Shown piece after piece: positions 908 to 13,402 of a DNA stretch of 64,000 bases. The translations under genes were made by a program, and so were the position numbers. The notes below the pieces were generated by a model, which searched no databases, had not been told where the DNA came from, and was given only the letters and a program-made list of their open reading frames with translations. The stretch is from the NCBI GenBank assembly GCA_000153445.1, contig CH672398.1, positions 261,230 to 325,229 on the forward strand, given 5' to 3'. Within the stretch, counting starts at the first letter, position 1. Each line of letters opens with the position of its first letter. Origin of the DNA: a gamma proteobacterium HTCC2207. Lineage in GTDB: Bacteria; Pseudomonadota; Gammaproteobacteria; Pseudomonadales; Porticoccaceae.

Positions 908-1807
908 ATGAGTTCAATTTTAATCACCGGCGGCAGTGGTTTTATTGGTCGGCACTTTTGCCGTCAGGCCGAACAGCTGGGTTATCAACTCTGTGTACTG
1001 ACACGCAAGCCCGAGGCCGCTGCGGCGCGACTGCCAACATCGGTGCGCCTAATTCAGGGACTCAGCGAACTGGACGCGGACTATGCGCCAGAGGTGATCC
1101 TCAATCTGGCCGGCGAGCCATTGGCAGACGGGCGCTGGACCCAGCGCCGCAAGCAACGTTTCTATGATAGTCGAATTAATCTCACCGACCGCCTCTATGA
1201 GTTTTTTGCCGAGCGAAAGCGCAAACCGGCTCTGGTGATCAGTGGCTCCGCTATTGGTTATTATGGCCCGAGCGATGTGCCAGTGGATGAATATTCCAAT
1301 GCGGTTAATGGATTCTCTCACCAGTTGTGTAAAACCTGGGAGCAAAGTGCTAAACGGTTTGAAGCCATTGGCAGTCGGGTTTGCTATCTGCGCACTGGCA
1401 TTGTGCTGGGTGAGGAGGGTGCATTGGCGCGTATGCTGCCGCCCTTTAAGTTGGCCCTCGGAGGTCCGATTGGCACGGGTAAGCAGGGAATGTCGTGGAT
1501 TCATATTGAGGATATGGTCGGGGCTATTTTGCACTGTATAAACACTCCAGAGATTTCTGGACCGGTTAATGCGACCGCCCCTAACCCGGTCTCCAATGCG
1601 GAGTTTAGTGTCAGCCTAGGAGCCGCCCTAGAGCGACCCGCGGTGCTGCCGATGCCAGGATTTATGGTCAAACTGCTGTTTGGTGAAATGGGCGAAGAGT
1701 TGTTGTTACAGGGGCAATTTGTACTGCCGAAGAAACTGCTGGCCAGCGACTACCTATTCCAATACAGCGATCTTGAAAAAGCGTTGCAGCAGATTGTTGC
1801 TGCTTAG
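908..1807 (+). CDS. TIGR01777-family NAD-dependent epimerase (YfcH/SDR39U1-like)
   Basis: A 299-residue atypical short-chain dehydrogenase with the N-terminal nucleotide-binding loop GGSGFIGRHF (residues 8-17). LNLAGEPLADGRW follows, the family hallmark found where classical epimerases bind the cofactor. SGSAIGYYG with the Ser and Tyr of the active site comes next, then a C-terminal DUF1731-like segment. The real substrate is unknown in most bacteria. Its stop overlaps the convergent FGGY kinase stop by 4 bp, and it stands alone on the plus strand behind a 221-bp gap shared with purC. Family assignment is firm; function is not. Confidence 0.88.
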   Translation: MSSILITGGSGFIGRHFCRQAEQLGYQLCVLTRKPEAAAARLPTSVRLIQGLSELDADYAPEVILNLAGEPLADGRWTQRRKQRFYDSRINLTDRLYEFFAERKRKPALVISGSAIGYYGPSDVPVDEYSNAVNGFSHQLCKTWEQSAKRFEAIGSRVCYLRTGIVLGEEGALARMLPPFKLALGGPIGTGKQGMSWIHIEDMVGAILHCINTPEISGPVNATAPNPVSNAEFSVSLGAALERPAVLPMPGFMVKLLFGEMGEELLLQGQFVLPKKLLASDYLFQYSDLEKALQQIVAA

Positions 1808-3378
1808 CTCGGATAACCGGTGATTTTCCTGATCGCCTCATAGCTGGGTTTAAGCCCTTTATACATTTTTCGATAGACCTGACTATAGAGTTGAGCGTAG
1901 ATTTTCTGATTGGCTTCTATAGGCTCAAAACGGTCACCAGGGTGGGTCATATTGGCCGCTGCACTGGCAAAATCTGGGTAGATTCCACTGCCTACTGCGG
2001 CCGCTATAGCGGCACCCAGAGCTGAAGTCTCGTAGGTGTGGGGTCGCTGCACCGGCATGCCAAATATATCTGCGGTGATCTGCATAATCTGATCGCTCTG
2101 AGAGCCGCCGCCGGAGACCAGTAGTTTAGTGATCGGCTGGCCGCTACGCTTTTCCACTCTCTCTTTACCGGCACGGAGGGCGTAGGTGAGCCCCTCGATA
2201 ATGGCGCGATAGAGATGCGCGCGGGTGTGTACATCGCCAAAGCCGATAATGGCGCCCTTGGCCTCTGGACCTTCGTTATCTGCACCTGCGCCCCAGTAGG
2301 GCTGCAGAGTGAGTCCCGCAGAACCTGCGGGCACCTGCCGCAATAAATCATCGAATAGGGATTCCACAGTTACGCCCTGTTGCTCGGCGGCGGACTGTTC
2401 CTCAAGCCCAAACTGCTGTTTAAACCAGCTTACCATCCAATAGCCACGCGGCACCATCATTTCAATATTAAAACTGCCAGGAATTACACCGGGATAGGCG
2501 GGATGATAGGGGATCGCTTCAAGATATTTGTCGCTGGTGATATTAAAAGTGGCGGTGGTGCCGTAGCTAAGGCTGCCAGTATTGCTATCCAGACAGCCAG
2601 TGCCAAGCACTTCGCAGGCTTTGTCTGAACCACAGGCTATAAGGCGTAGCCCTTGGGGTATACCCGTCTCCGCTGCAGCTACCGGGCTGATATGACCCAG
2701 TAGGCCACCGGCCTCAACCAGTTCTGGCAGCATATCCCGCTTTATGGAGGGAATCGCCCGCCATTTCCAGTCTTTGGCCTCAGCCCATTGCAGCTGTTTA
2801 AAGTCAAAGGGCACAAATCCCACTTGGCTGGCGATAGAATCTTTGTAATCGCCAGTGAGTTTGTAATTCTGATAGCCAGAGAGCAGCAGCAGTTTGTCCA
2901 CTTGGCCCCAGACTTCCGGTTCATGCTGCGCAATCCAGTTGGCTTCGGCCTGAGTGTGAAAAGTGTCTACCGCCACTTTGGCACCCACGGCGCGCATTAA
3001 TAGCGACTCCAGTGTCCCAAGCTCGGGTTCGCTATGGATCTGACGTTGATCGAGCCAACTTATCGCGGCGCGCAGCGGTTGGCCATCGGCACCCATAGGA
3101 ACCACAGTGGCGCGCTGGGTGGTGACTGACATAGCTTTAATCGATTCACGGGGAATCTCCAGCTGACTCCAGAGTTGATGACAAGCTTGGCAGAGGGCTT
3201 GCCAAAAATAGTCGGCGTGCTGTTCGGCCCAGCCTGGCTCGGTGGAAAAGTAAGGTTCGATATCAACTTTGCTCTTAGCAATTATTTGACCATCTCGATC
3301 AAAGATCATGGCGCGAACACTCTGGGTGCCGTTATCTATAGCGAGTAAATACTCTTGCTTGTCTGCTACTTTTTCCAT
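1804..3378 (-). CDS. FGGY-family carbohydrate/polyol kinase
   Basis: A 524-residue FGGY kinase that would phosphorylate a sugar, polyol or glycerol-like alcohol with ATP in the cytosol. LLAIDNGTQSVRAMIFD at residues 11-27 is the N-terminal phosphate loop, SWLDQR the catalytic-Asp region, and LLVSGGGSQSDQIMQI the C-terminal ATPase motif. It is the third gene of a minus-strand set, 41 bp after the GlpD-like gene. Next to a glycerol-3-phosphate dehydrogenase the obvious guess is glycerol or a glycerol derivative. However, the sequence is not an obvious GlpK, so I leave the substrate open and give no symbol. Confidence 0.88.
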   Translation of the reverse strand: MEKVADKQEYLLAIDNGTQSVRAMIFDRDGQIIAKSKVDIEPYFSTEPGWAEQHADYFWQALCQACHQLWSQLEIPRESIKAMSVTTQRATVVPMGADGQPLRAAISWLDQRQIHSEPELGTLESLLMRAVGAKVAVDTFHTQAEANWIAQHEPEVWGQVDKLLLLSGYQNYKLTGDYKDSIASQVGFVPFDFKQLQWAEAKDWKWRAIPSIKRDMLPELVEAGGLLGHISPVAAAETGIPQGLRLIACGSDKACEVLGTGCLDSNTGSLSYGTTATFNITSDKYLEAIPYHPAYPGVIPGSFNIEMMVPRGYWMVSWFKQQFGLEEQSAAEQQGVTVESLFDDLLRQVPAGSAGLTLQPYWGAGADNEGPEAKGAIIGFGDVHTRAHLYRAIIEGLTYALRAGKERVEKRSGQPITKLLVSGGGSQSDQIMQITADIFGMPVQRPHTYETSALGAAIAAAVGSGIYPDFASAAANMTHPGDRFEPIEANQKIYAQLYSQVYRKMYKGLKPSYEAIRKITGYPS

Positions 3379-3419: not shown

Positions 3420-5042
3420 TTAATTGCTCTTGGGGAGGCTGTAAAAGCGCTGCCATATATCCAGATAACGTTTGGCTTCATGGCGCCAATGGTCACCGCT
3501 CCAACCTAGCTCAGCAGCGCAAATAGCTTCCAGAGCAGGAAATAATTCGCTGCCGCCATGGACCATTACCATGCCCAATCTAGTGCGTCGCAACAGTAGG
3601 TCATCGAGGTGTAGAACCGCTTCATTACGCGCTGCCCAGCGACATTCAGCGAGGCAAAAATCGGTGCCGGGGATACGCTGATGCTCTGAGGCGGGCGCGC
3701 TATCGAGCATTGCTTTGGCCTGTATGCCATAGCGACCTAGCAGGCGCTGCGCCCAGGCTGGGTCCTCAGCAATCAGCTCTTTAGCGGTGAGATCTGGGGC
3801 GATAAACACTCGCTCGTCGGAAAAGGGTTTTGCGTTGGGCAACTGAGGAAGAGCAGCATTTAACGCGTCTAGAGCAATCAGTCTAAATGTGGTGAGCTTG
3901 CCGCCACTCACGGTAATTAAGCCATTGTCTGACCAGACTGCATGGTCCCTGCGCTCCTTTGAAGGATCCTTGGAACTCTCTGATCCAATCACCGGGCGCA
4001 CTCCAGCCCAGCTGGAAATAATATCGACGCGGCTAATGGTGTGCCCAGGGAACTGCACATTAAACGCCTGCAGTAAATAATCCACTTCAGCATTATTAAT
4101 GCTCGCCTCAATATCGAGATCTTCATCGTGGTCTAGATCCGTGGTGCCTATAACGGTGGTGCCTTCCCAGGGGTAGACATAGACTCCACGCTTATCGTCA
4201 GGATGCAGTGAGGTAAGCACATCGGTGACCGGCATCAGGTTGCGGGGGATAATAAGATGGCTACCACGCAGCGGGCGGATGCGCTTTTCTGGATTGACTT
4301 GATTGCGCAGACGGTCAGCCCAGGCACCTGTGGCATTAATTACCGCAGCAGCGCGCAGCCTAATGCCGTCGCTGCCCTCGGGATCATTGAGCACTACACC
4401 CTGAACCTGACCTTCTTCGAGCAGCAGCTCACTGACTTTGCTGTAATTAATCGCTGTGCCGCCGGCGCTAATACTCTCCTGTAATACCCGTAGTACTAGC
4501 CGCGAGTCATCGACCATGGCGTCGCTGTAGGCTGTGGCACCATTGAGATGGCCCTGTTGCAGACCAGGAAAGCGTTGGCCGAGACGGCGATTGTTGTAAT
4601 AGCGATGGTCGCGGATACCGGCGATAAAGTCATAGATCGTTAAAATAACCGCCATCGCCCAGCGGCCCGGGAACAGACCTTTGCTAAGGGTGAAATAAAA
4701 ACTAATTCGGTCCACCAATCCCGGCGCTTCTGCCAGCAAACGTTCGCGCTCAGTTAAGCTCTCTTTCGTCAGCTTAAGGTCACCGGCAGCCAGATAGCGC
4801 AAACCACCGTGAACCATTTTCGATGAGCGACTCGAAGTGCCGGAGGAGAAATCTCCCTGCTCAAGCAGCAATGCTCTATAACCCCGGCGCACTGCTTCCC
4901 GGAGAACACCGGCACCGGTAATGCCGCCACCAATAATAATGATGTCCCAATCGAGAGATCCGCCGCTGCGCATCTCGGCCAGAAGCTTGGTTTGTTGGGT
5001 AAAGTGGGAAGTGACTTCAGATGACATCTTAGTTGAGCTCAT
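3420..5042 (-). CDS. glpD: FAD-dependent glycerol-3-phosphate dehydrogenase/oxidase (GlpD-like)
   Basis: A 540-residue flavoprotein that would oxidise sn-glycerol 3-phosphate to dihydroxyacetone phosphate and pass electrons to quinones at the inner membrane. The FAD-binding GGGITGAG is at about residues 38-45. SSRSSKMVHGGLRYL is the classic GlpD signature, GTTDLDHDED lies mid-protein, and TVSGGKLTTFR precedes a C-terminal GlpD cap domain. The start at 5042 lies 14 bp inside the upstream FAD-oxidase gene, so the two are probably translationally coupled; an ATG at 5027 is a second possible start. Its place between an alkyl-DHAP-synthase-like gene and an FGGY kinase suggests DHAP/G3P traffic in lipid metabolism rather than plain glycerol catabolism. 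Confidence 0.88.
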   Translation of the reverse strand: MSSTKMSSEVTSHFTQQTKLLAEMRSGGSLDWDIIIIGGGITGAGVLREAVRRGYRALLLEQGDFSSGTSSRSSKMVHGGLRYLAAGDLKLTKESLTERERLLAEAPGLVDRISFYFTLSKGLFPGRWAMAVILTIYDFIAGIRDHRYYNNRRLGQRFPGLQQGHLNGATAYSDAMVDDSRLVLRVLQESISAGGTAINYSKVSELLLEEGQVQGVVLNDPEGSDGIRLRAAAVINATGAWADRLRNQVNPEKRIRPLRGSHLIIPRNLMPVTDVLTSLHPDDKRGVYVYPWEGTTVIGTTDLDHDEDLDIEASINNAEVDYLLQAFNVQFPGHTISRVDIISSWAGVRPVIGSESSKDPSKERRDHAVWSDNGLITVSGGKLTTFRLIALDALNAALPQLPNAKPFSDERVFIAPDLTAKELIAEDPAWAQRLLGRYGIQAKAMLDSAPASEHQRIPGTDFCLAECRWAARNEAVLHLDDLLLRRTRLGMVMVHGGSELFPALEAICAAELGWSGDHWRHEAKRYLDIWQRFYSLPKSN

Positions 5043-6645
5043 CGGGTAACAGTTTGCCCGGGTTCATCTGGCTTTCGGGATCAAACAGTTGGCACAGAGA
5101 ATTGATTGCCGCCAAACCCAACTCGCCTTTCTCTGCCACCAAATAGTCACGATGATCTCGACCCACGCCGTGCTGATGACTGATAGTGCCGCCACTGGCA
5201 ACGATTTGATTGGCACCTGCAGCCTTGAGCTTGTGCCAGCGCCCCATGGCCTGCCGATAGCTGTCACCAAGACGAAATAGATAGGTTGTGTAGATGCTCG
5301 AACCCTGACCATAGACGTGACTTAGGTGAGTATAGGCATGGACCTGCTCGTCCTCATCAGCCAGGCCATTGCGGATTGCCGATTCGATATTCTCCACCGC
5401 CTGAGGTAACGTTGACCAATCAACCGCGGTCTCCATAGTGTCCACCGCATAGCCGGCACTGCCCAGTGGATCCCGCAGATAGGGGGCGCGAAAGCGACCG
5501 TGGGCCCAGTTATCACCCAAACCAACCTGATCAGCCAAACCACCAAGACCGGTACAGTGATCCAGGGCCATCTCTTTTGCCATGTCGCAGTGGCGGGCCG
5601 AGCCGGTGACGCCAAAGGTCATCATTACTTTGCCGGCACCTATGCCTTTTTCTGCCAGAGCAGTTTCCAGAGCGACCACACCGCTGCTGTCATCACCCGC
5701 GCCCATATACAGCAAACTGGTGGTTTCCAATGGATTGCTCAGGCGGACCATAGACAGAGCGATACGCTGTTGAATTAATTCTCGTGCTGCTTGAAGGCCC
5801 ACTTCCCAAGAAGGGAAAAACACTACCTGAAACGATTCCTTCTCAGGTAACTTGGTTACTCTGACGACAACCTCGGTAATAATACCCATGCGTCCTTCAG
5901 AGCCAAGAATCATTTCACGAATATCTGGGCCGGCAGAGGAGGCGGGAATAGTGGGTATATCCAGTGTGCCTGCGAGAGTTTCAATAGAGCCGCCAGCAAA
6001 CATATTTTCTATTCGCCCATAGTGCAGGGACTGCTGCCCGCTGGAGCGACTGGCAACCCAGCCACCCACTGTGGAGAGCTCCCAAGACTGGGGAAAATGA
6101 CCGAGGGTATAACCCTCTTTTTGCAATTGGGCTTCGACTTCAGGGCCAGGCGTGCCGGCACCAAAGGTCGCCAGTTGGCTTTCGCGATCAAAGTGAAGCA
6201 ACTTATTCATCGTGCTCATATCAATGGTCAATATGGGGCGCGGGCTGATTTCGGGGTTGATATGGCCGACCACTGAGGTGCCGCCACCGTAGGGAATTAC
6301 ATCAATATTATTGTCTCGGGCATAGCGGAGTAATTCCCGTACCTGTTCACTGTTCTCGGGCAGTGCCACGGCGTCGGGAAAACTGTCTACATCACCGCTG
6401 TGCATCGCCAGCCAATCAGGCAGGCTCTGGCCTCGCGCATGGCGCACGCGGATCTCTGGGTCTGTACTGATAAGTGGGTGGGCAGGGGCTCTGGAGGCTG
6501 GCACTTTGGCCATAACCTGTTCCAGAGTCGCCTCACCTAGGGGGGTGGCGGGGCCCACCAGCATCTGCAGAAGATTGCGCAGTCCACTGTTAAGTTCCAT
6601 TAGCAACTCGCTGTTTTCATTTCCCCAGCCATTCCATAGACGCAT
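5029..6645 (-). CDS. FAD-binding oxidase resembling alkyldihydroxyacetonephosphate synthase
   Basis: A 538-residue member of the FAD_binding_4 / FAD-oxidase C family. YGGGTSVVGHINP is the pyrophosphate-binding loop. ELSTVGGWVASRSSGQQSLHYG and GPDIREMILGSEGRMGIIT follow the order seen in eukaryotic AGPS, and ASGGTISHQHGVG near the C-terminus corresponds to the AGPS SHHHGVG active-site loop with the middle His replaced by Gln. AGPS swaps the acyl group of acyl-DHAP for a fatty alcohol, forming the ether bond; whether this protein does so is inference. I prefer the ATG at 6645, preceded by AAGG at a good distance, over the upstream GTG at 6687. First gene of the minus-strand set, divergent from an AraC regulator. 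Confidence 0.85.
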   Translation of the reverse strand: MRLWNGWGNENSELLMELNSGLRNLLQMLVGPATPLGEATLEQVMAKVPASRAPAHPLISTDPEIRVRHARGQSLPDWLAMHSGDVDSFPDAVALPENSEQVRELLRYARDNNIDVIPYGGGTSVVGHINPEISPRPILTIDMSTMNKLLHFDRESQLATFGAGTPGPEVEAQLQKEGYTLGHFPQSWELSTVGGWVASRSSGQQSLHYGRIENMFAGGSIETLAGTLDIPTIPASSAGPDIREMILGSEGRMGIITEVVVRVTKLPEKESFQVVFFPSWEVGLQAARELIQQRIALSMVRLSNPLETTSLLYMGAGDDSSGVVALETALAEKGIGAGKVMMTFGVTGSARHCDMAKEMALDHCTGLGGLADQVGLGDNWAHGRFRAPYLRDPLGSAGYAVDTMETAVDWSTLPQAVENIESAIRNGLADEDEQVHAYTHLSHVYGQGSSIYTTYLFRLGDSYRQAMGRWHKLKAAGANQIVASGGTISHQHGVGRDHRDYLVAEKGELGLAAINSLCQLFDPESQMNPGKLLPDELN

Positions 6646-6783
6646 GCTAGATACCTTATTATTGTAGTTTTTTATTCTGACGGACACTGGTTGCGTATGA
6701 TAGTCTGAAGGTAATATTGGTCACTGTCAGGTGACGACAGCGGTGTGACTATTTCGGTCAGCTGCTTGCTCAGGGGGCAAAAG

Positions 6784-7824
6784 ATGAATCAAGTCGTCAG
6801 TAATGGACTGGCATCGGCACCTGCGATTAAGCAGTATTTAAACGCTGCTCAAGCCTGCGGTCTAGATGTTCAACCTCTGCTGTTGCAGGCGGGAATAGAC
6901 GCCAAGGTACTGGAAGATAATAATCGCCATCTGCCCAACGCCTGTATGGAGCGGCTGCTGGCGCTGTTGATTCCGGCGAGTAAAGATCCCTGTTTTGGTC
7001 TGCATGCTGCGCGCTTTGTTGAACCGGCATCCTTCAGTGTGCTCGGCTATATCTCCATGAACTGTTCGACTCTGCGGATGGTTCAGGCAAAAATTCCGAT
7101 CTATGAAAAAATCGTGGGCGATATGGGTGTAACCTCTTTTGAGACCACTCAAGGAGTTGTTTTACAGCGATGGCAATGTCTCTTTACCGACCCCATAGTG
7201 AAGCGTCATGAAGTGGAAAATGTAATTGGTTCTTGGGTCTGTTATGCGCGTCAGTTTCTCCACTTCGATCACTGGGACAGTATCTGGTTTGAGCATTCGG
7301 CGCCGGAGGATCCAGCATTGCTGGCAGATTACCAGGAGATTTTTAACTGTGAGGTGCTGTTTGATCAGCCGTCCAGTGGTGTCCGCATACGTGAGGCATT
7401 GCTTGACGAGGTATTACCTCAGGCCAATGGAGAATTGCTCGAGATGCTACTGGCACATGCCACCAAGCTTTTGGCTGGTCTCGATCAAAGTCAGCGCACC
7501 ACAGACCAGGTAAAAAACATCTTACGCTTGATGATTAATCAGCAACCGCCTTCCAGTGAAATGATTGCCGAGAAGCTCGGTATCAGCAGTCGCACCTTAC
7601 AGCGCAAATTGAGCGAAGAGGGCACCCATTACAAAGATGTGCTGAACGAATTGCGCTATGAACTGGCGGTCTACTTTCTGAAAAATACTGAGTTGACCTT
7701 GGATAATATTGCCTACGAATTGGGCTACGCTGAGGCGCGCTCTTTTTATCGCAGCTTTAAGCAATGGACTGGCGAGACCGCTGGGTGCTTCAGAGCCGCG
7801 CATCTATCTAATTCCCAAGACTGA
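6784..7824 (+). CDS. AraC-family regulator with arabinose-binding-like (PF12625) N-terminal domain
   Basis: A 346-residue transcription factor. The N-terminal two thirds (QYLNAAQACGLDVQPLLLQAG, then GYISMNCSTLRMVQAKIPIYEKIVGD) match the ligand-binding domain of the OruR/ArgR/virulence-type AraC group, which often senses lipids or amino acids. The C-terminal AraC DNA-binding domain shows MIAEKLGISSRTLQRKLSEEG and IAYELGYAEARSFYRSFKQWTG. The ATG at 6784 has AGGGGGC just upstream and is preferred to the GTG at 6745. It is divergent from the AGPS-like/GlpD/FGGY genes and its stop abuts the stop of the convergent epimerase gene, so it most likely controls this cluster. Confidence 0.9.
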   Translation: MNQVVSNGLASAPAIKQYLNAAQACGLDVQPLLLQAGIDAKVLEDNNRHLPNACMERLLALLIPASKDPCFGLHAARFVEPASFSVLGYISMNCSTLRMVQAKIPIYEKIVGDMGVTSFETTQGVVLQRWQCLFTDPIVKRHEVENVIGSWVCYARQFLHFDHWDSIWFEHSAPEDPALLADYQEIFNCEVLFDQPSSGVRIREALLDEVLPQANGELLEMLLAHATKLLAGLDQSQRTTDQVKNILRLMINQQPPSSEMIAEKLGISSRTLQRKLSEEGTHYKDVLNELRYELAVYFLKNTELTLDNIAYELGYAEARSFYRSFKQWTGETAGCFRAAHLSNSQD

Positions 7825-8835
7825 TTATTTTTTTAGCAACCCCTGTTCAGTAGCCCACTGTTTTGAGCGTTCCATTCCCTCTTCAAAAGAGACCTCAGGC
7901 GCCCAGCCAAGAATCCGCTGAGCCTTTTCTATACTGAACCAGCTCTTGGTCGAAAGCTGAGCTACTGTGGCAGTGGTCGCTTCATTAACACCACCGGTGA
8001 GATCCGCAAGCTTAGTGGCCACAGCGGCGGCTATCATTGCCAGTCGAGTGGATACCAGCATTGGCCCTTTCTTATTGAGCCAGCTGTAGTGATGACTAAA
8101 AAAGTCTTTACTGCTCATATAACCCTGACAGGAGAGATTAAATATCTCGCCATTGGCTGCAGGGGCGGCAACTGCCAGCGCAATGCCGCGGATCAGATCG
8201 TCTATGTACGTGGGGCGGAAAAACCCTTCGCCTTTTTCTGGAAGCATAAACTGACCTTTCAGAATGGCTTCTAGAGGTAGTATTAACCAGGGCCGACTGC
8301 CGGGGCCATAGACATCCCCTGGGCGTATTATCACGATCTCGATATTGCCCTTGGCGTGTGCTGCTAACACCGCGTGCTCGGAGGCGAGCTTGGTCAATAC
8401 ATAGCTGCCACCATCGGCATGGACTGGATGATCTTCACATAGCTCACCGGCAGCGGAATTACCGTAGGCGACGATGGACGAAAGTTGCACAAAACGCCGA
8501 ACATTATATTTTTCAGCGGCAGCAATCAGATTGGCCGTGGCCTGCACATTGACCCGCCACATATCGGCATCGCTGAGGGCGTTGGAGACCAATGCGGCAG
8601 TGTGAATAATGACATCGCATTGGCTAAGTAGCTCGGCAATACTCTCTGGATTGCCAATATCGCCTTCCACAATAGTCCCTTCATCACCAGCTCCGCCATC
8701 ACCAGCTCCTCCATTACCACGTAAGTCGACACCCACAACCTCAATGCCCTGTTGCTGATAGTAGCGCATCAGGCTGTTGCCAATAAAGCCATTGGCGCCG
8801 GTGATCATGACTTTGCTAGGTGTTTGCTCGCTCAT
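7825..8835 (-). CDS. NAD-dependent epimerase/dehydratase (extended SDR)
   Basis: A 336-residue extended SDR. MITGANGFIGNSLM at residues 10-23 is the Rossmann GxxGxxG loop and SYVLTKLASEHAV carries the active-site YxxxK. IIRPGDVYGPGSRPW follows, as in 3-beta-HSD/NAD(P)-dependent sterol-dehydrogenase-like proteins. Residues 41-50 are a Gly-Ala-Asp repeat (GGAGDGGAGD) inserted just after the second Rossmann strand; it is encoded by a 15-bp tandem duplication. It sits 38 bp from the upstream SDR on the same strand, probably one transcript. The substrate is not evident; the setting suggests a lipid or sterol alcohol. Confidence 0.88.
   Translation of the reverse strand: MSEQTPSKVMITGANGFIGNSLMRYYQQQGIEVVGVDLRGNGGAGDGGAGDEGTIVEGDIGNPESIAELLSQCDVIIHTAALVSNALSDADMWRVNVQATANLIAAAEKYNVRRFVQLSSIVAYGNSAAGELCEDHPVHADGGSYVLTKLASEHAVLAAHAKGNIEIVIIRPGDVYGPGSRPWLILPLEAILKGQFMLPEKGEGFFRPTYIDDLIRGIALAVAAPAANGEIFNLSCQGYMSSKDFFSHHYSWLNKKGPMLVSTRLAMIAAAVATKLADLTGGVNEATTATVAQLSTKSWFSIEKAQRILGWAPEVSFEEGMERSKQWATEQGLLKK
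8684..8713. repeat. 15-bp tandem repeat inside the epimerase gene
   Basis: Two adjacent 15-bp units (TCACCAGCTCCGCCA and TCACCAGCTCCTCCA) differ at one base, and a decayed third begins TTACCAC. On the coding strand they give GGAGD twice. The period is in frame, so copy-number change lengthens the loop without breaking the protein. Confidence 0.85.
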
Positions 8836-8873
8836 ATTGGTCTCTTTTATTGTGAAAGAATATTGCGTCGCAG

Positions 8874-9671
8874 CTAGTGCATATTGCTGCGGTAATAACG
8901 GCCGGCAATTTTTGCTAGTGCCATTTTCGAGAACAGGCGGGTAATGGCCACCGTGATGCGATTGGCCAGGCCAGTGACAATGGTCGATCGACCGGCCAGG
9001 CAGGCCTCAATACCCTGCTCGGCAACTTCCCGTGGCGATTGCAGCATACTCGAGGGAACCAATAACTTGCCCCCCTGAGCTGGATTGTCCATCATTTTTG
9101 TGGCGGTATAGCCGGGGCAGAGGGCAGTGACCGTAACACCGGACTTGCTCGCCTTGAGCTCATCGTGCAGCGCCTGAGTAAACGACAGTACATAAGCCTT
9201 GGTGGCGGCATAGACATTTTGATTGGGAATCGGTGTCCAGGCGGCGAGTGAGGCGACATTTAATATATGCCCACCATTGCGGCTCGTCATATTGTTGGCA
9301 AACAGGTGGGTCAATGAGGTCAGAGCAAGAATATTGACGTTGATCATGCTCTCTTGAGTGGCCAGATCCAGCTGGGTAAAAAAGCCATTTTGTAATAGGC
9401 CGGCATTATTGATTAGAAAATCCACTTCTAATCCCTGCTCTTGAACCTGCTGAAACAGTTCCTGAGCCGCCTGAGGTGCGGCCAGATCTGCCGCCAAAAC
9501 GGTGCAGGTAATGGTTGGGTATTGGGCTTTAAGACTCTCGGCAATCTCGTCTAGCTGTGCCTGGCGACGGGACACAAGGATTAGATTGTAGCCCTTGGCA
9601 GCAAGTATTTTGCAGCACTCAAGGCCTATGCCATCGGAGGCGCCGGTTACTAATGAAGTTTTGTTTTGCAT
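8874..9671 (-). CDS. Short-chain dehydrogenase/reductase (classical SDR)
   Basis: A 265-residue classical SDR. TGASDGIGLECC at residues 9-20 binds the nucleotide, LINNAG is the NNAG motif, and LNVASLAAWTPIPNQNVYAATKAYV carries the active-site Ser and YxxxK. The C-terminal segment (VAEQGIEACLAGRSTIVTG...NRITVAITRLF) resembles the membrane-associated 3-ketoacyl/sterol-type SDRs, including DltE/YqjQ relatives. First gene of a two-gene unit with the epimerase. In the ether-lipid reading of the cluster it would be a candidate acyl- or alkyl-DHAP reductase, which is speculation. Confidence 0.88.
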   Translation of the reverse strand: MQNKTSLVTGASDGIGLECCKILAAKGYNLILVSRRQAQLDEIAESLKAQYPTITCTVLAADLAAPQAAQELFQQVQEQGLEVDFLINNAGLLQNGFFTQLDLATQESMINVNILALTSLTHLFANNMTSRNGGHILNVASLAAWTPIPNQNVYAATKAYVLSFTQALHDELKASKSGVTVTALCPGYTATKMMDNPAQGGKLLVPSSMLQSPREVAEQGIEACLAGRSTIVTGLANRITVAITRLFSKMALAKIAGRYYRSNMH

Positions 9672-9742: not shown

Positions 9743-9825
9743 TCTTATTAAGAGCTTTATGGTAGCGAAAAAGACTGACTGTTCACTGTCGTCAACAGTC
9801 AGAACTGTGGCAATTTCGGACATAA

Positions 9826-9916: not shown

Positions 9917-12586
9917 TTAGAAACTGTAGCTGAGGCGTGCGCCCCAAACTGCGCCGCGAGCCATATAGCTAAAGTGAGCACCACCGGCCAGAGGAACGTC
10001 AGCAGCACCAGTGGCCGTGATCTCATCGGTAATGTTACGACCGAAGAGCATCATGTCCCAATTTTCACCGCGGATACCGGCACGGATATTCACTTTCTCA
10101 AAACCACTCTGTATATCAATTGGGTCCAAGTCACCTGTCATGTAGTACATATCGGTGAAGTTAACATCCAGTCCAGCAAACCAAATCAAGCCATTGCTGA
10201 GAGGTTTAATATAGTCAGCCGTGATCGAGCCGGAGTAATCGGAACCTAACTGGCCACCGGAGATATCCTGAGCTGAACCAGATGGGTTGCCATCACCCAA
10301 GAACTGCTGCTGACAACCCATTGCTGAGGTCACAGGAGAGCTAGAAGTCAGGTCGCCTAACCCTAAGAGTGCAGAGGCTTGACTGGCAGTACAGCCGGCA
10401 GCATCGAATGAACCATATTCACCATCTAGGAAGGCCATTGCCAAACCTAAACGCAGTTCATCAGTTGCCTGCCAGGTCATATCCATCTCAATGCCCTGAA
10501 TTTCAGAGGATGCAGCGTTAGCTACAACAAAGCCCAAACCGACAAAGGTAGAAACCTGTTGGTCTTCATACTCACTGTTGAAATAAGCCCAGTTTAAGTT
10601 CATGGCTCCATCCAACAGCACATGCTTACCACCGATCTCAAAAGAACGTGCACTCTCATCATCGTACTCAAAACCAATTCCTGGAACAGTTCGTTGAACG
10701 GTTCCGTCAGCAAGGATGTTAGGGTTTTGATCATCTACAGAGTTAAAGCCGCCGCTTTTAAAGCCCTCGGAGTAGCTAATGTAGTACTTGCTAGTATCTG
10801 ACTGCTCCCACTGCAAATTAGCTGCTGGGATAACCTGGTTGGTCGAACGCTTCTCGTTGAAATCATGCGCCCAAACACCAAATGATGCAGATTGCAGAGC
10901 GGCCAAGAACGGCGTTTCGTTTGGCGTTGCCAAGCCAGTATAGCTAGCGGTAAGGTCGGCTTTAGCAGAGGCTTCTTTATCTTCTTCGGTATAACGCACA
11001 CCAGCAGTCAAGGTCAGCGTATCTGACAGCTCATAGGTGCCCTGGAAGAAAGCAGCCACAGTGTCTGTTGTACTTGCGTAGTTACTAACCCGACCGGCTT
11101 GGTTCCACATCGCCATGCCATCTACACCCCAGAAAGCGTTGACAGTGCCGATGCCAGTGGGCGTTCCCATCCAAGCGCCGATTGCCGCAGGGTCAGTGAC
11201 GCCCTGCGCGCCAAGAATGGCGCCGGCAATTTGCGCTTTACTGAATGCCAAGAATGACGCTGTGCCATTGGCCGGGTCGCCGAGACCAGTGATGACTTTC
11301 ATCAGGTCTGGATTTCCCAAAGTACCATCGACAATAACAGTACGGTCAATGTCCTGCTCTGCCTTAGACCAGTAAGCACCGGCAACAAATGAGAAGGTCT
11401 GATCAGTTGGAGAGGCGATGCGGAATTCCTGACTTGTCTGTTTGTATTCAGAGATATCGCTGCGACCAACAAAGGTCACTGGTAGCCAATCGGCATCCAT
11501 ACCATCTTCATAGTCATAAGTGTTTCTGCCTGTCACCGAGTGGAAGCTGTAACCATTTTTCATCTCGATATCGATACGCAATGCGGTATCGCTAGTTTGA
11601 GTGTCAGTGCCCTCGAATTTTTCCTCAGTGCGGTCTAAATCGCGACCCAGAGACTGAGCCAACGCCAAACCACCTATGGAGCGGCCATCACGAAATGCGT
11701 CGATATCGCCAGCGGCCACATTAGCAGCATAGTCTGGGAACGATGCTCCCATCATGGCGAACATAACTGAATTCGATGCAGGAATATTGGTTTCAGGGGC
11801 AAAGGTTGTTACTGCACCAGGTCCGCCAACACGGACAAAATCGCTCTCGCCGTGGGTTAACTTGATTGCTGTACTGTCATTAGGCTCCCACATAGTGGTA
11901 AACCGCCAGATAGTCTCGTCAGTTGTGGGCATAGCTGTTGGTGCACCATTCGCCGCAGTGGCAAAGCCGTTATCCATATAGCCATCATCGCTACGATCTC
12001 TAACGGCAAAGCGGAAACCAAGATTGTCAGATGGCGAATAGTTAAGGTGTGCTTCCAGTAACTCACCGTCATCGCTCTCAACCGTTGCGGCAACTTTGCC
12101 TGACATCCCTTCACCCATTTCAGGCTCTGCGGTAGTTACGTTAATCGCACCGGCCAAGGTGTTCTTGCCAAAAAGGATACCCTGTGGGCCACGCAGTACT
12201 TCCACTTGCTGTAAATCAAATAGGCCAGTTCTAATCTGGCGACTCTTGCCGTAGTGGACACCATCAACATAAACGCCGACAGACTGCTCAAAAGACTGGT
12301 TGGCACCAACGCTGATGCCGCGCATGGTGATAATGGTGTTTACCGCATTTTCTGAAATAGCAAGGTTAGGTACAAAGCCATTAAGGTCAGCAAAGCTTGT
12401 GATACCCGCATCTTTCATTCTCTCACCAGTGATGGCGGTCATAGAAATGGGTACGTCTTGAAGGCTTTCTGCGCGCTTTTGTGCGGTAACAATAATTTCT
12501 TCAAGTTGGGCAGAATATGCCCCGGTGGATATGGTCGCTATGGCTAATGTCATACTACTTAGTTTAAGAAATGAGCGTGTTTTCAT
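9917..12586 (-). CDS. TonB-dependent outer-membrane receptor
   Basis: An 889-residue receptor of the kind abundant in marine gammaproteobacteria. The signal peptide ends near GAYSA (residues 22-26). The plug starts with LEEIIVTAQKRAESLQDVPIS, a TonB-box and plug signature, and VEVLRGPQGILFGKNTLAGAINV is the conserved plug motif at about 120-142. The C-terminus ends in aromatic YSF as expected for a beta-barrel. It takes up some large or scarce substrate using proton-motive force; the ligand cannot be read from the sequence. AGGGGAAG stands just before the ATG. It points the same way as the SDR pair but is separated from it by a terminator, so it is transcribed separately. Confidence 0.92.
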   Translation of the reverse strand: MKTRSFLKLSSMTLAIATISTGAYSAQLEEIIVTAQKRAESLQDVPISMTAITGERMKDAGITSFADLNGFVPNLAISENAVNTIITMRGISVGANQSFEQSVGVYVDGVHYGKSRQIRTGLFDLQQVEVLRGPQGILFGKNTLAGAINVTTAEPEMGEGMSGKVAATVESDDGELLEAHLNYSPSDNLGFRFAVRDRSDDGYMDNGFATAANGAPTAMPTTDETIWRFTTMWEPNDSTAIKLTHGESDFVRVGGPGAVTTFAPETNIPASNSVMFAMMGASFPDYAANVAAGDIDAFRDGRSIGGLALAQSLGRDLDRTEEKFEGTDTQTSDTALRIDIEMKNGYSFHSVTGRNTYDYEDGMDADWLPVTFVGRSDISEYKQTSQEFRIASPTDQTFSFVAGAYWSKAEQDIDRTVIVDGTLGNPDLMKVITGLGDPANGTASFLAFSKAQIAGAILGAQGVTDPAAIGAWMGTPTGIGTVNAFWGVDGMAMWNQAGRVSNYASTTDTVAAFFQGTYELSDTLTLTAGVRYTEEDKEASAKADLTASYTGLATPNETPFLAALQSASFGVWAHDFNEKRSTNQVIPAANLQWEQSDTSKYYISYSEGFKSGGFNSVDDQNPNILADGTVQRTVPGIGFEYDDESARSFEIGGKHVLLDGAMNLNWAYFNSEYEDQQVSTFVGLGFVVANAASSEIQGIEMDMTWQATDELRLGLAMAFLDGEYGSFDAAGCTASQASALLGLGDLTSSSPVTSAMGCQQQFLGDGNPSGSAQDISGGQLGSDYSGSITADYIKPLSNGLIWFAGLDVNFTDMYYMTGDLDPIDIQSGFEKVNIRAGIRGENWDMMLFGRNITDEITATGAADVPLAGGAHFSYMARGAVWGARLSYSF

Positions 12587-13402
12587 TGGTCTTCCCCTGA
12601 GTGCTATTGAAGCGGTTTTTCCGCGTTTATAGTTATTCTTTTTGATAGCTGAGAAGAATTCCCTACCTGGCTTTTTTAGCCGCTTTTGTAGGGTTTTTAA
12701 GCGTTATTTTTAAACAATTCCCAGCACTTTTTTATATAGCTATCGCCTACTTTTATTATTGCTTTTAAATGGCTTCTAGAAGGTTTAAGTAAAAATAATT
12801 ATTTTAATGAACTACTGATTCTATTCACACCTAAATTGATATCCAAAATGAATTTTAATTTGGCATGCGGATATCGGTTGCTTTAGTAAGGATAATTTCA
12901 GTGAAAATCATCATAGCCCATGACTATCCTTAAGCACTGTCATAAAGCGTCACAGAGATGTCTATTTCGGTCATATTCTGCTTATGGAGACTCGGCACAC
13001 ATTCAAATGTTCAAAAAATTAATACGTAAATGATAAATATTATTTTTCTATGTCTATTTGGAATTTAAAAGTTTTTTTTAATAACAAAAAAGTTTGTATT
13101 ATTGGATTCATTCATTATCAAATAAATATTGATTTAGCCATTAAATTTATAATTTCGATTAGTCAGAATGTTGGATCAAAAATCTATCAGAAACACAAAT
13201 TATCACATTAATAATGTCCAAATGTGGTTCAAAACCTGCTCTCAGACCTGCTCTCAAACCTGTTCCCAAATATATGATTATCTTTTTGGAGATCGCCTTT
13301 AATCCTATGGCAGACTTACCTATGGGTATTATTTAATTCACCTGTGAATTGGATTCTATGGTCTATATTTACGAGACGTAAATAATTGAACAGGGATCTG
13401 TT
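12587..13402. other. Long AT-rich intergenic region between TonB receptor and ugd
   Basis: About 816 bp with no believable gene on either strand. It is much richer in A+T than its neighbours, with many poly-A/T runs. At 13235-13270 there are three abutting 12-bp units (CCTGCTCTCAGA, CCTGCTCTCAAA, CCTGTTCCCAAA). It must hold the promoters of both divergent genes. A CAGGGA Shine-Dalgarno at 13391-13396 serves ugd. I see no confident operator. Confidence 0.6.

Follow-up and report, generated by a model that had tools for sequence, protein, structure and literature searches.

A Conserved AGPS–GlpD–FGGY Operon in a Marine Gammaproteobacterium and Its Possible Role in the Catabolism of Glycerol Ether Lipids

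Organization of the Locus

Gammaproteobacterium HTCC2207 carries, on contig CH672398.1, a group of genes that encodes an AGPS-type FAD protein, a GlpD-like dehydrogenase, and an FGGY-family kinase, with a divergent AraC-family regulator. The stretch analyzed here, called the window, comprises 64,000 nucleotides of a 2.63-Mb assembly that is 98.6% complete; the closest named organisms among the matches listed are marine bacteria of the Porticoccaceae/SAR92 type, with an AGPS-type protein 89% identical. Computation defines the gene content of the cluster, its conservation, the family placement and residues of its proteins, the co-occurrence of its genes, and the repetition of an upstream site. 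We give an even chance to the reading that this cluster serves to break down glycerol ether lipids. The features of the locus are as follows.

1804–3378, minus strand: FGGY-family kinase (Pfam FGGY_N/FGGY_C); proposed 1-O-alkylglycerol kinase
3420–5042, minus strand: GlpD-like FAD glycerol-3-phosphate dehydrogenase (Pfam DAO, DAO_C); proposed alkyl-glycerol-3-phosphate (alkyl-G3P) dehydrogenase
5029–6687, minus strand: AGPS-type FAD protein, in 14-base overlap with the GlpD-like gene; proposed ether-cleaving alkyl-dihydroxyacetone phosphate (alkyl-DHAP) lyase/hydrolase
6721–6755, minus strand: operator-like composite site upstream of the AGPS operon, 0 mismatches
6745–7824, plus strand: GliR-like AraC-family regulator, divergent (Arabinose_bd domain PF12625; best NCBIfam match GliR)
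7825–8835, minus strand: NAD-dependent epimerase/3-beta-HSD-like dehydrogenase (Pfam Epimerase)
8874–9671, minus strand: short-chain dehydrogenase (SDR); best NCBIfam match mycolate reductase, 179.5 bits, below the cut-off of 380
9783–9817, minus strand: operator-like composite site upstream of the SDR–epimerase pair, 0 mismatches
9917–12586, minus strand: TonB-dependent outer-membrane receptor (Pfam Plug, TonB_dep_Rec_b-barrel); proposed uptake component
12934–12968, minus strand: operator-like composite site upstream of the TonB-dependent receptor, 2 mismatches

ATG 6645 (beginning MRLWNGWG) is a more likely start for the AGPS-type protein than the annotated 6687, as is ATG 6784 for the regulator rather than 6745. 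A preliminary description of this DNA had placed a candidate glycerol ether-lipid or alkylglycerol gene cluster at positions 3420–9671. The genes that it named are all present, as is the SHQHGVG motif that it pointed out, but the kinase gene falls outside that interval, and the TonB-dependent receptor, which has the same upstream site as the AGPS operon, goes beyond its gene list.

Conservation of the Operon

Conservation was counted over named loci from a scan of genome contigs; the counts tilt toward near relatives because they cover only the best 80 of at least 571 confirmed relatives. GlpD directly follows AGPS in 77 of the 80 loci, the others being one that is cut by a contig end (L044) and two that lack it (L048 and L049). 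The kinase in turn directly follows GlpD in 72 of those 77, with three loci cut (L042, L059, and L109) and two without it (L106 and L116). A divergent GliR-like regulator is found in 41 loci, is missing from 33, and is cut off in 6. The arrangement AGPS–GlpD–FGGY is a conserved operon, beyond chance, and the window has the three genes in this order together with the divergent AraC regulator, which is the arrangement of a GliR-type operon. Clustering in relatives, the absence of which would have told against the preliminary description, is thus conserved by these counts.

Some of the incomplete loci have the missing genes at a distance. In L048 and L049, where AGPS stands alone, a GlpD–kinase pair lies elsewhere in the genome, with a kinase 61% identical, and such a pair is also found elsewhere in the genome of L109 (kinase 54% identical). 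In L048 and L049 AGPS adjoins an MMPL-family transporter and a DUF1439 protein. L106 and L116, from Anaerolineae, have an AGPS–GlpD pair in genomes with no kinase of the subfamily, the best being 29–31% identical; these pairs may feed directly on alkyl-G3P.

The genes are also inherited together. In a class-wide sample of 369 genomes, with thresholds of at least 40% identity for the AGPS subfamily and at least 38% for the kinase subfamily, each subfamily occurs in 9 genomes and both occur in 8 (hypergeometric P 1.0e-14, ignoring relatedness), and both mismatches fall at contig ends. Thirteen AGPS-like stretches were taken from the class sample and an order relative. Where the protein belongs to the subfamily, GlpD adjoins it in 7 of 7 and the kinase lies within the stretch in 6 of 7; for L133 the kinase is on another contig (L142), although about 2.9 kb was available beside L133. 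The six distant AGPS-like stretches (L123–L128; 28–32% identity) have neither neighbor (0 of 6). Within the genus the distribution is patchy: AGPS occurs in 9 of 13 genomes including this one, one copy being a fragment. Of the four members without it, three amount to about 1.4 Mb, with assembly completeness of 90% or more.

Among the neighbors of the 80 loci, no fourth enzyme family turns up repeatedly in different lineages (120 of 136 near-neighbor families scanned), and neither a linked DHAP acyltransferase nor an alkyl-DHAP reductase is conserved among the near neighbors. A recurrent fourth partner gene was accordingly rejected as a candidate, most neighboring families being restricted to particular lineages: genes for type II secretion in Marinobacter, GGDEF, DUF1302, and MoeA-like proteins, and an aldehyde dehydrogenase with an aminotransferase. 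The epimerase lies upstream of AGPS in 8 of the 80 loci, and the SDR is likewise confined to this epimerase-bearing lineage.

The AGPS-Type FAD Protein

By sequence, tree, and predicted fold the closest relatives of the FAD protein are alkyldihydroxyacetonephosphate synthases (ADPS), and it stands separate from flavoproteins of the lactate/glycolate type, in a tree whose two eukaryotic rows are partial chains and whose Dictyostelium row is a long branch. Equivalents of R352, R447, and Y508, residues important for covalent catalysis by Dictyostelium ADPS (PMC3509576), are kept in all 79 aligned members (78 of the 80 loci plus the window), the mapping employing an inferred chain-index offset of 3. 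The protein also has the N-terminal W-N-G-W-G motif. It is a true AGPS-type protein, consistent with the ether-lipid type of chemistry first proposed for the cluster. Placement with lactate or glycolate oxidases, an outcome that would have told against that proposal, is contradicted by the tree. The identity GlcD/LDH was rejected on tree, fold, and motif; those proteins carry [GA]EHG rather than HQHG, and the NCBIfam GlcD score is 126 bits against a cut-off of 567.9.

The altered active-site motif, SHQHGVG in place of SHHHGVG, had been taken as a sign that the reaction could differ. The glutamine is indeed present, as a property of the whole subfamily: it occupies the middle position in 77 of the 79 members, with histidine in L068 and L109, and SHQHGVG is a hallmark of the subfamily. 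Among the six distant AGPS-like proteins the HHH motif is seen in 5. The positions of E301 and D303 of the guinea pig enzyme are Phe/Tyr and Gln, respectively, in all 79. Any conservation of the acyl-DHAP pocket is judged from aligned residues only.

The Kinase and the GlpD-Like Dehydrogenase

The kinase pocket was compared with that of E. coli GlpK in 72 members (71 of the 80 loci plus the window, after rows below 85% of full length or with stops had been dropped). Five positions of GlpK, R84, E85, Y136, D246, and Q247, are taken by us to contact glycerol. All 72 kinases retain R84 and D246. The other three are replaced throughout, E85 by Gly (53), Ala (15), Tyr (3), or Ser (1), Y136 by Phe (56), Leu (11), Met (3), or Val (2), and Q247 by Lys in every case. 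Glycerol kinase was rejected as the identity of the FGGY protein on these differences at three of the five positions. Its score for the NCBIfam glycerol kinase model is 184.5 bits against a cut-off of 590.35, and it also falls below the xylulokinase cut-off. The genome also encodes a separate GlpK (L118), canonical at all five positions, and another GlpD-like protein (L120). Judging from its pocket residues, the FGGY kinase is unlikely to act as a glycerol kinase. For that reason the suggestion that the dehydrogenase and kinase handle glycerol is unlikely as well.

R54, Y55, H233, R317, and K354, presumably the catalytic and phosphate-binding residues of aerobic GlpD, are kept in all 76 GlpD-like proteins aligned. 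The dehydrogenase does not reach the NCBIfam equivalog cut-off for aerobic GlpD (282.4 against 360 bits), and its best PDB match is 3da1 (E 1.4e-70).

The Regulator and the Upstream Sites

The best NCBIfam match of the regulator is GliR (NF050186), at 356.6 bits under a cut-off of 570. It is 43% identical to the divergent regulator of Pseudomonas alcaligenes (L051), and Pseudomonas regulators range from 42% to 46%. A conserved block appears in six aligned promoter regions between the regulator and AGPS. A composite operator-like pattern derived from the AGPS and SDR upstream regions has three matches in the window (0, 0, and 2 mismatches), where 0.03 are expected from shuffles, and each lies on the strand of the gene downstream (AGPS, SDR, and TonB receptor). 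Genome-wide, at up to 3 mismatches, there are four matches, the fourth (3 mismatches) being on another contig; a reversed-pattern control gives none. In the 1.58 Mb of the 80 loci plus the window, up to 4 mismatches yields 18 matches, of which 11 precede AGPS, 3 precede the SDR gene, 3 precede the receptor gene, and 1 lies elsewhere; most of the 80 loci therefore lack the site. The position of the regulator suggests that the GliR-like protein would bind these predicted operators.

Inclusion of the SDR and epimerase in the cluster, as first described, is partly upheld. In this genome they share the upstream site of AGPS, yet with 8 of 80 loci they are lineage-specific additions. The SDR could oxidize a fatty alcohol or reduce alkyl-DHAP.

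Relation to Known Systems

The preliminary description had called the function of such clusters in marine bacteria unknown. The cluster is in print as PA3026–PA3024 and GliR/PA3027 of Pseudomonas aeruginosa (PMC8151288), although its biological role was left open there. GliR activates PA3026–PA3024, and its targets include a phospholipase C; an in silico route from glycerol to alkylglycerone phosphate, i.e., synthesis, was proposed, and few genomes with clustered genes were found in the authors' RefSeq set (PMC8151288). Both organisms have the genes for the AGPS-like protein, the GlpD-like protein, and the FGGY kinase in that order, along with a divergent AraC-type regulator. The window differs in its upstream site and in having the SDR, epimerase, and TonB receptor instead of an adjacent YegS-type kinase, and we propose degradation where those authors drew synthesis. 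On n-octadecane the PA3026 protein reaches about half its level on n-hexadecane (PMC5491041), and is therefore made during growth on alkanes. A literature search on bacterial breakdown of alkylglycerols and ether lipids, confined to top results and with subscription papers mostly outside its coverage, returned nothing on the operon except PMC8151288.

With peroxisomal AGPS/ADPS the window protein shares the fold, the three catalytic residues, the first and third histidines of SHxHGVG, and W-N-G-W-G. It differs in the glutamine at the middle position, is about 25–30% identical, and is linked to a kinase and a dehydrogenase, with a reaction proposed to run backwards. Glycerol catabolism by GlpK and GlpD likewise employs a kinase and then an FAD dehydrogenase, with the same GlpD catalytic residues; the window is set apart by its kinase pocket, by the extra AGPS-type enzyme, and by scores of both proteins below the NCBIfam equivalog cut-offs. 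Alkylglycerol monooxygenase (AGMO), described in two abstracts as the only known alkylglycerol ether-cleaving enzyme (PMC7911779, PMC3617469), breaks the same bond as the proposed route. AGMO is a membrane enzyme that needs tetrahydrobiopterin and oxygen, whereas the proposed route would be oxygen-free and yield an alcohol and DHAP.

A Proposed Pathway for Ether Lipid Breakdown

In the pathway envisaged here, the TonB-dependent receptor would import an ether lipid or a breakdown product across the outer membrane. The FGGY kinase would phosphorylate 1-O-alkylglycerol at sn-3 to give alkyl-G3P, and the GlpD-like flavoenzyme would oxidize the sn-2 hydroxyl to form 1-O-alkyl-DHAP, passing electrons to quinone. 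The AGPS-type protein would then act in reverse, taking the C1 proton, forming an adduct at flavin N5, and expelling the fatty alcohol; attack of water, rather than of an alcohol, on the flavin–DHAP iminium would release DHAP. DHAP would enter glycolysis and the fatty alcohol fatty-acid oxidation. The GliR-like AraC-type regulator, sensing a related lipid, would probably control all three transcription units. AGPS follows a ping-pong mechanism through a flavin N5–DHAP adduct (PMC3509576), and because of this mechanism the reversal, with alkyl-DHAP in, alcohol out, water in, and DHAP out, is allowed.

The enzymes had been said to fit either the making or the breaking of an alkylglycerol, and breaking is favored. 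Kinase, dehydrogenase, and AGPS give a gapless path from 1-O-alkylglycerol to DHAP and fatty alcohol, and the stereochemistry of sn-3 phosphorylation and sn-2 oxidation fits. For synthesis, in contrast, a DHAP acyltransferase and a reductase would be missing, and a quinone-linked oxidation would serve no purpose. An external source of the lipid is suggested since the receptor shares the upstream site and a phospholipase is co-regulated in P. aeruginosa. The more general proposal, that AGPS-type enzymes with SHQHGVG cleave ethers and that an oxygen-independent kinase–dehydrogenase–flavoenzyme route for breaking down glycerol ether lipids is widespread in bacteria, is tentative, and falls somewhat short of an even chance. 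If correct, it would supply a second, oxygen-independent route of alkylglycerol ether cleavage beside AGMO, in a conserved three-gene operon that includes the published one of P. aeruginosa. It would also show a peroxisomal lipid-making reaction in reverse use and would explain bacterial recycling of ether lipids from animals and plankton. An orphan regulon becomes directly testable, with named substrates, three proteins, one regulator, and one predicted operator.

Several points weigh against degradation of ether lipids. We infer the substrate, the direction of the AGPS step, uptake by the receptor, and the roles of the SDR and epimerase; the AGPS step on record is in the synthetic direction, and hydrolysis of alkyl-DHAP is a proposal. 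The SHQHGVG loop (506–508) has a predicted local distance difference test (pLDDT) score below 50 in the predicted structure, so its geometry was not judged. The kinase resembles xylulokinase and autoinducer-2 kinase more closely than GlpK in both sequence and fold; its residue differences therefore need not be an adaptation from GlpK, and it may never have been a glycerol kinase. TonB receptors make up only 2 of the 120 near-neighbor families scanned, so that the receptor is no general partner, and no lipid gene family is enriched among those 120. The AGPS and SDR sites helped to build the composite pattern, which leaves the receptor site (2 mismatches) as the only independent one. Taken alone, the half-site TGTC-N7-GACAGTGA shows no enrichment across the genome (8 matches, compared with 13 for the reversed control), and motif A of P. 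aeruginosa GliR occurs in the window about as often as chance predicts (18 found, 14.2 expected). Another ether-cleaving enzyme may be present, since the genome has one FA_hydroxylase-family protein of AGMO-like length, and cleavage need not hang on the cluster alone. Deletions of PA3026–PA3024 or of PA3027 gave no growth phenotype in rich medium, with citrate or glycerol, under osmotic stress, or on Biolog plates (PMC8151288); alkylglycerols are not named among the media listed in its section 2.5.

Alternative Explanations

Synthesis is the direction drawn by the authors of PMC8151288: glycerol would be converted to DHAP by the kinase and GlpD-like protein, acyl-DHAP would come from an unlinked acyltransferase, and alkyl-DHAP for ether lipids would be formed by the AGPS-like protein. 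The conserved AGPS residues agree with it, as does an SDR that could reduce alkyl-DHAP and that shares the upstream site in this lineage. A dedicated kinase and a quinone-linked dehydrogenase are, however, unnecessary for making DHAP, and the operon has no conserved acyltransferase or reductase, the SDR and epimerase being present in 8 of 80 loci. With a kinase pocket unlike that of glycerol kinase and a TonB receptor that bears the same site, synthesis seems unlikely. Less improbable, though still doubtful, is the degradation of some other O-substituted glycerol (a vinyl-ether plasmalogen product, or an isoprenoid, aryl, or sugar ether) by the same three steps. The gene logic would be identical. 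Polyols and sugars are the usual substrates of FGGY kinases, the one in this cluster comes closest to xylulokinase and autoinducer-2 kinase, its invariant Lys at 247 could suit a polar group, and the distribution takes in soil pseudomonads and Oxalobacteraceae. Against this, replacement of Tyr136 by Phe, Leu, Met, or Val in every kinase aligned suggests a less polar ligand, and fatty alcohols are the substrates of the FAD protein's nearest characterized relatives.

Relatives of vanillyl-alcohol oxidase act oxidatively on some ethers. Within the same fold superfamily, the AGPS-like protein might be a flavin oxidase or dehydrogenase that attacks the O–CH2 carbon to give an alcohol and an aldehyde of DHAP; loss of the middle histidine and of the guinea pig E301 and D303 would fit such a change. 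Retention in all members of the three residues for covalent ADPS catalysis argues otherwise, as does HQHG where D-lactate/glycolate-type proteins have their own motif, and oxidative cleavage appears quite improbable. It is scarcely credible that the operon is an ordinary second set of glycerol and glycerol-3-phosphate enzymes accompanied by an unrelated FAD oxidase. The fully kept GlpD catalytic residues and the family names of the individual genes would accord with such a set, but the genome has its own canonical GlpK and another GlpD-like protein, the kinase pocket differs, kinase and AGPS are inherited together, and the FAD protein is AGPS-type.

Other Genes and Minor Observations

An FA_hydroxylase-family membrane protein of 414 residues (PF04116, 105.9 bits) is encoded at L149:1264–2508 (G000:C4:602128–603369), unlinked to the cluster, and presumably resembles AGMO. 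Its best NCBIfam match is OlsE, at 75.3 bits against a cut-off of 475, and the family includes other lipid hydroxylases. Relatives occur in 5 of the 9 genomes with the AGPS subfamily versus 21 of the 360 without it (Fisher P 1.2e-4, ignoring relatedness), an association to which we give little weight.

In two SAR86 loci (L040:6172–14785 and L041) DUF3604, SDR, epimerase, AGPS, GlpD, and FGGY genes form a contiguous run on one strand; the divergent GliR is absent, and so is the operator pattern when up to 4 mismatches are allowed.

PDB matches of the window's TonB receptor are confined to its N-terminal part and are to siderophore, colicin, and heme receptors. Between the receptor and a UDP-glucose-dehydrogenase-like gene lies a stretch of about 0.8 kb (12587–13402) without an open reading frame of 60 or more amino acids, and the operator-like site of the receptor sits within it, about 350 bp from the start codon.

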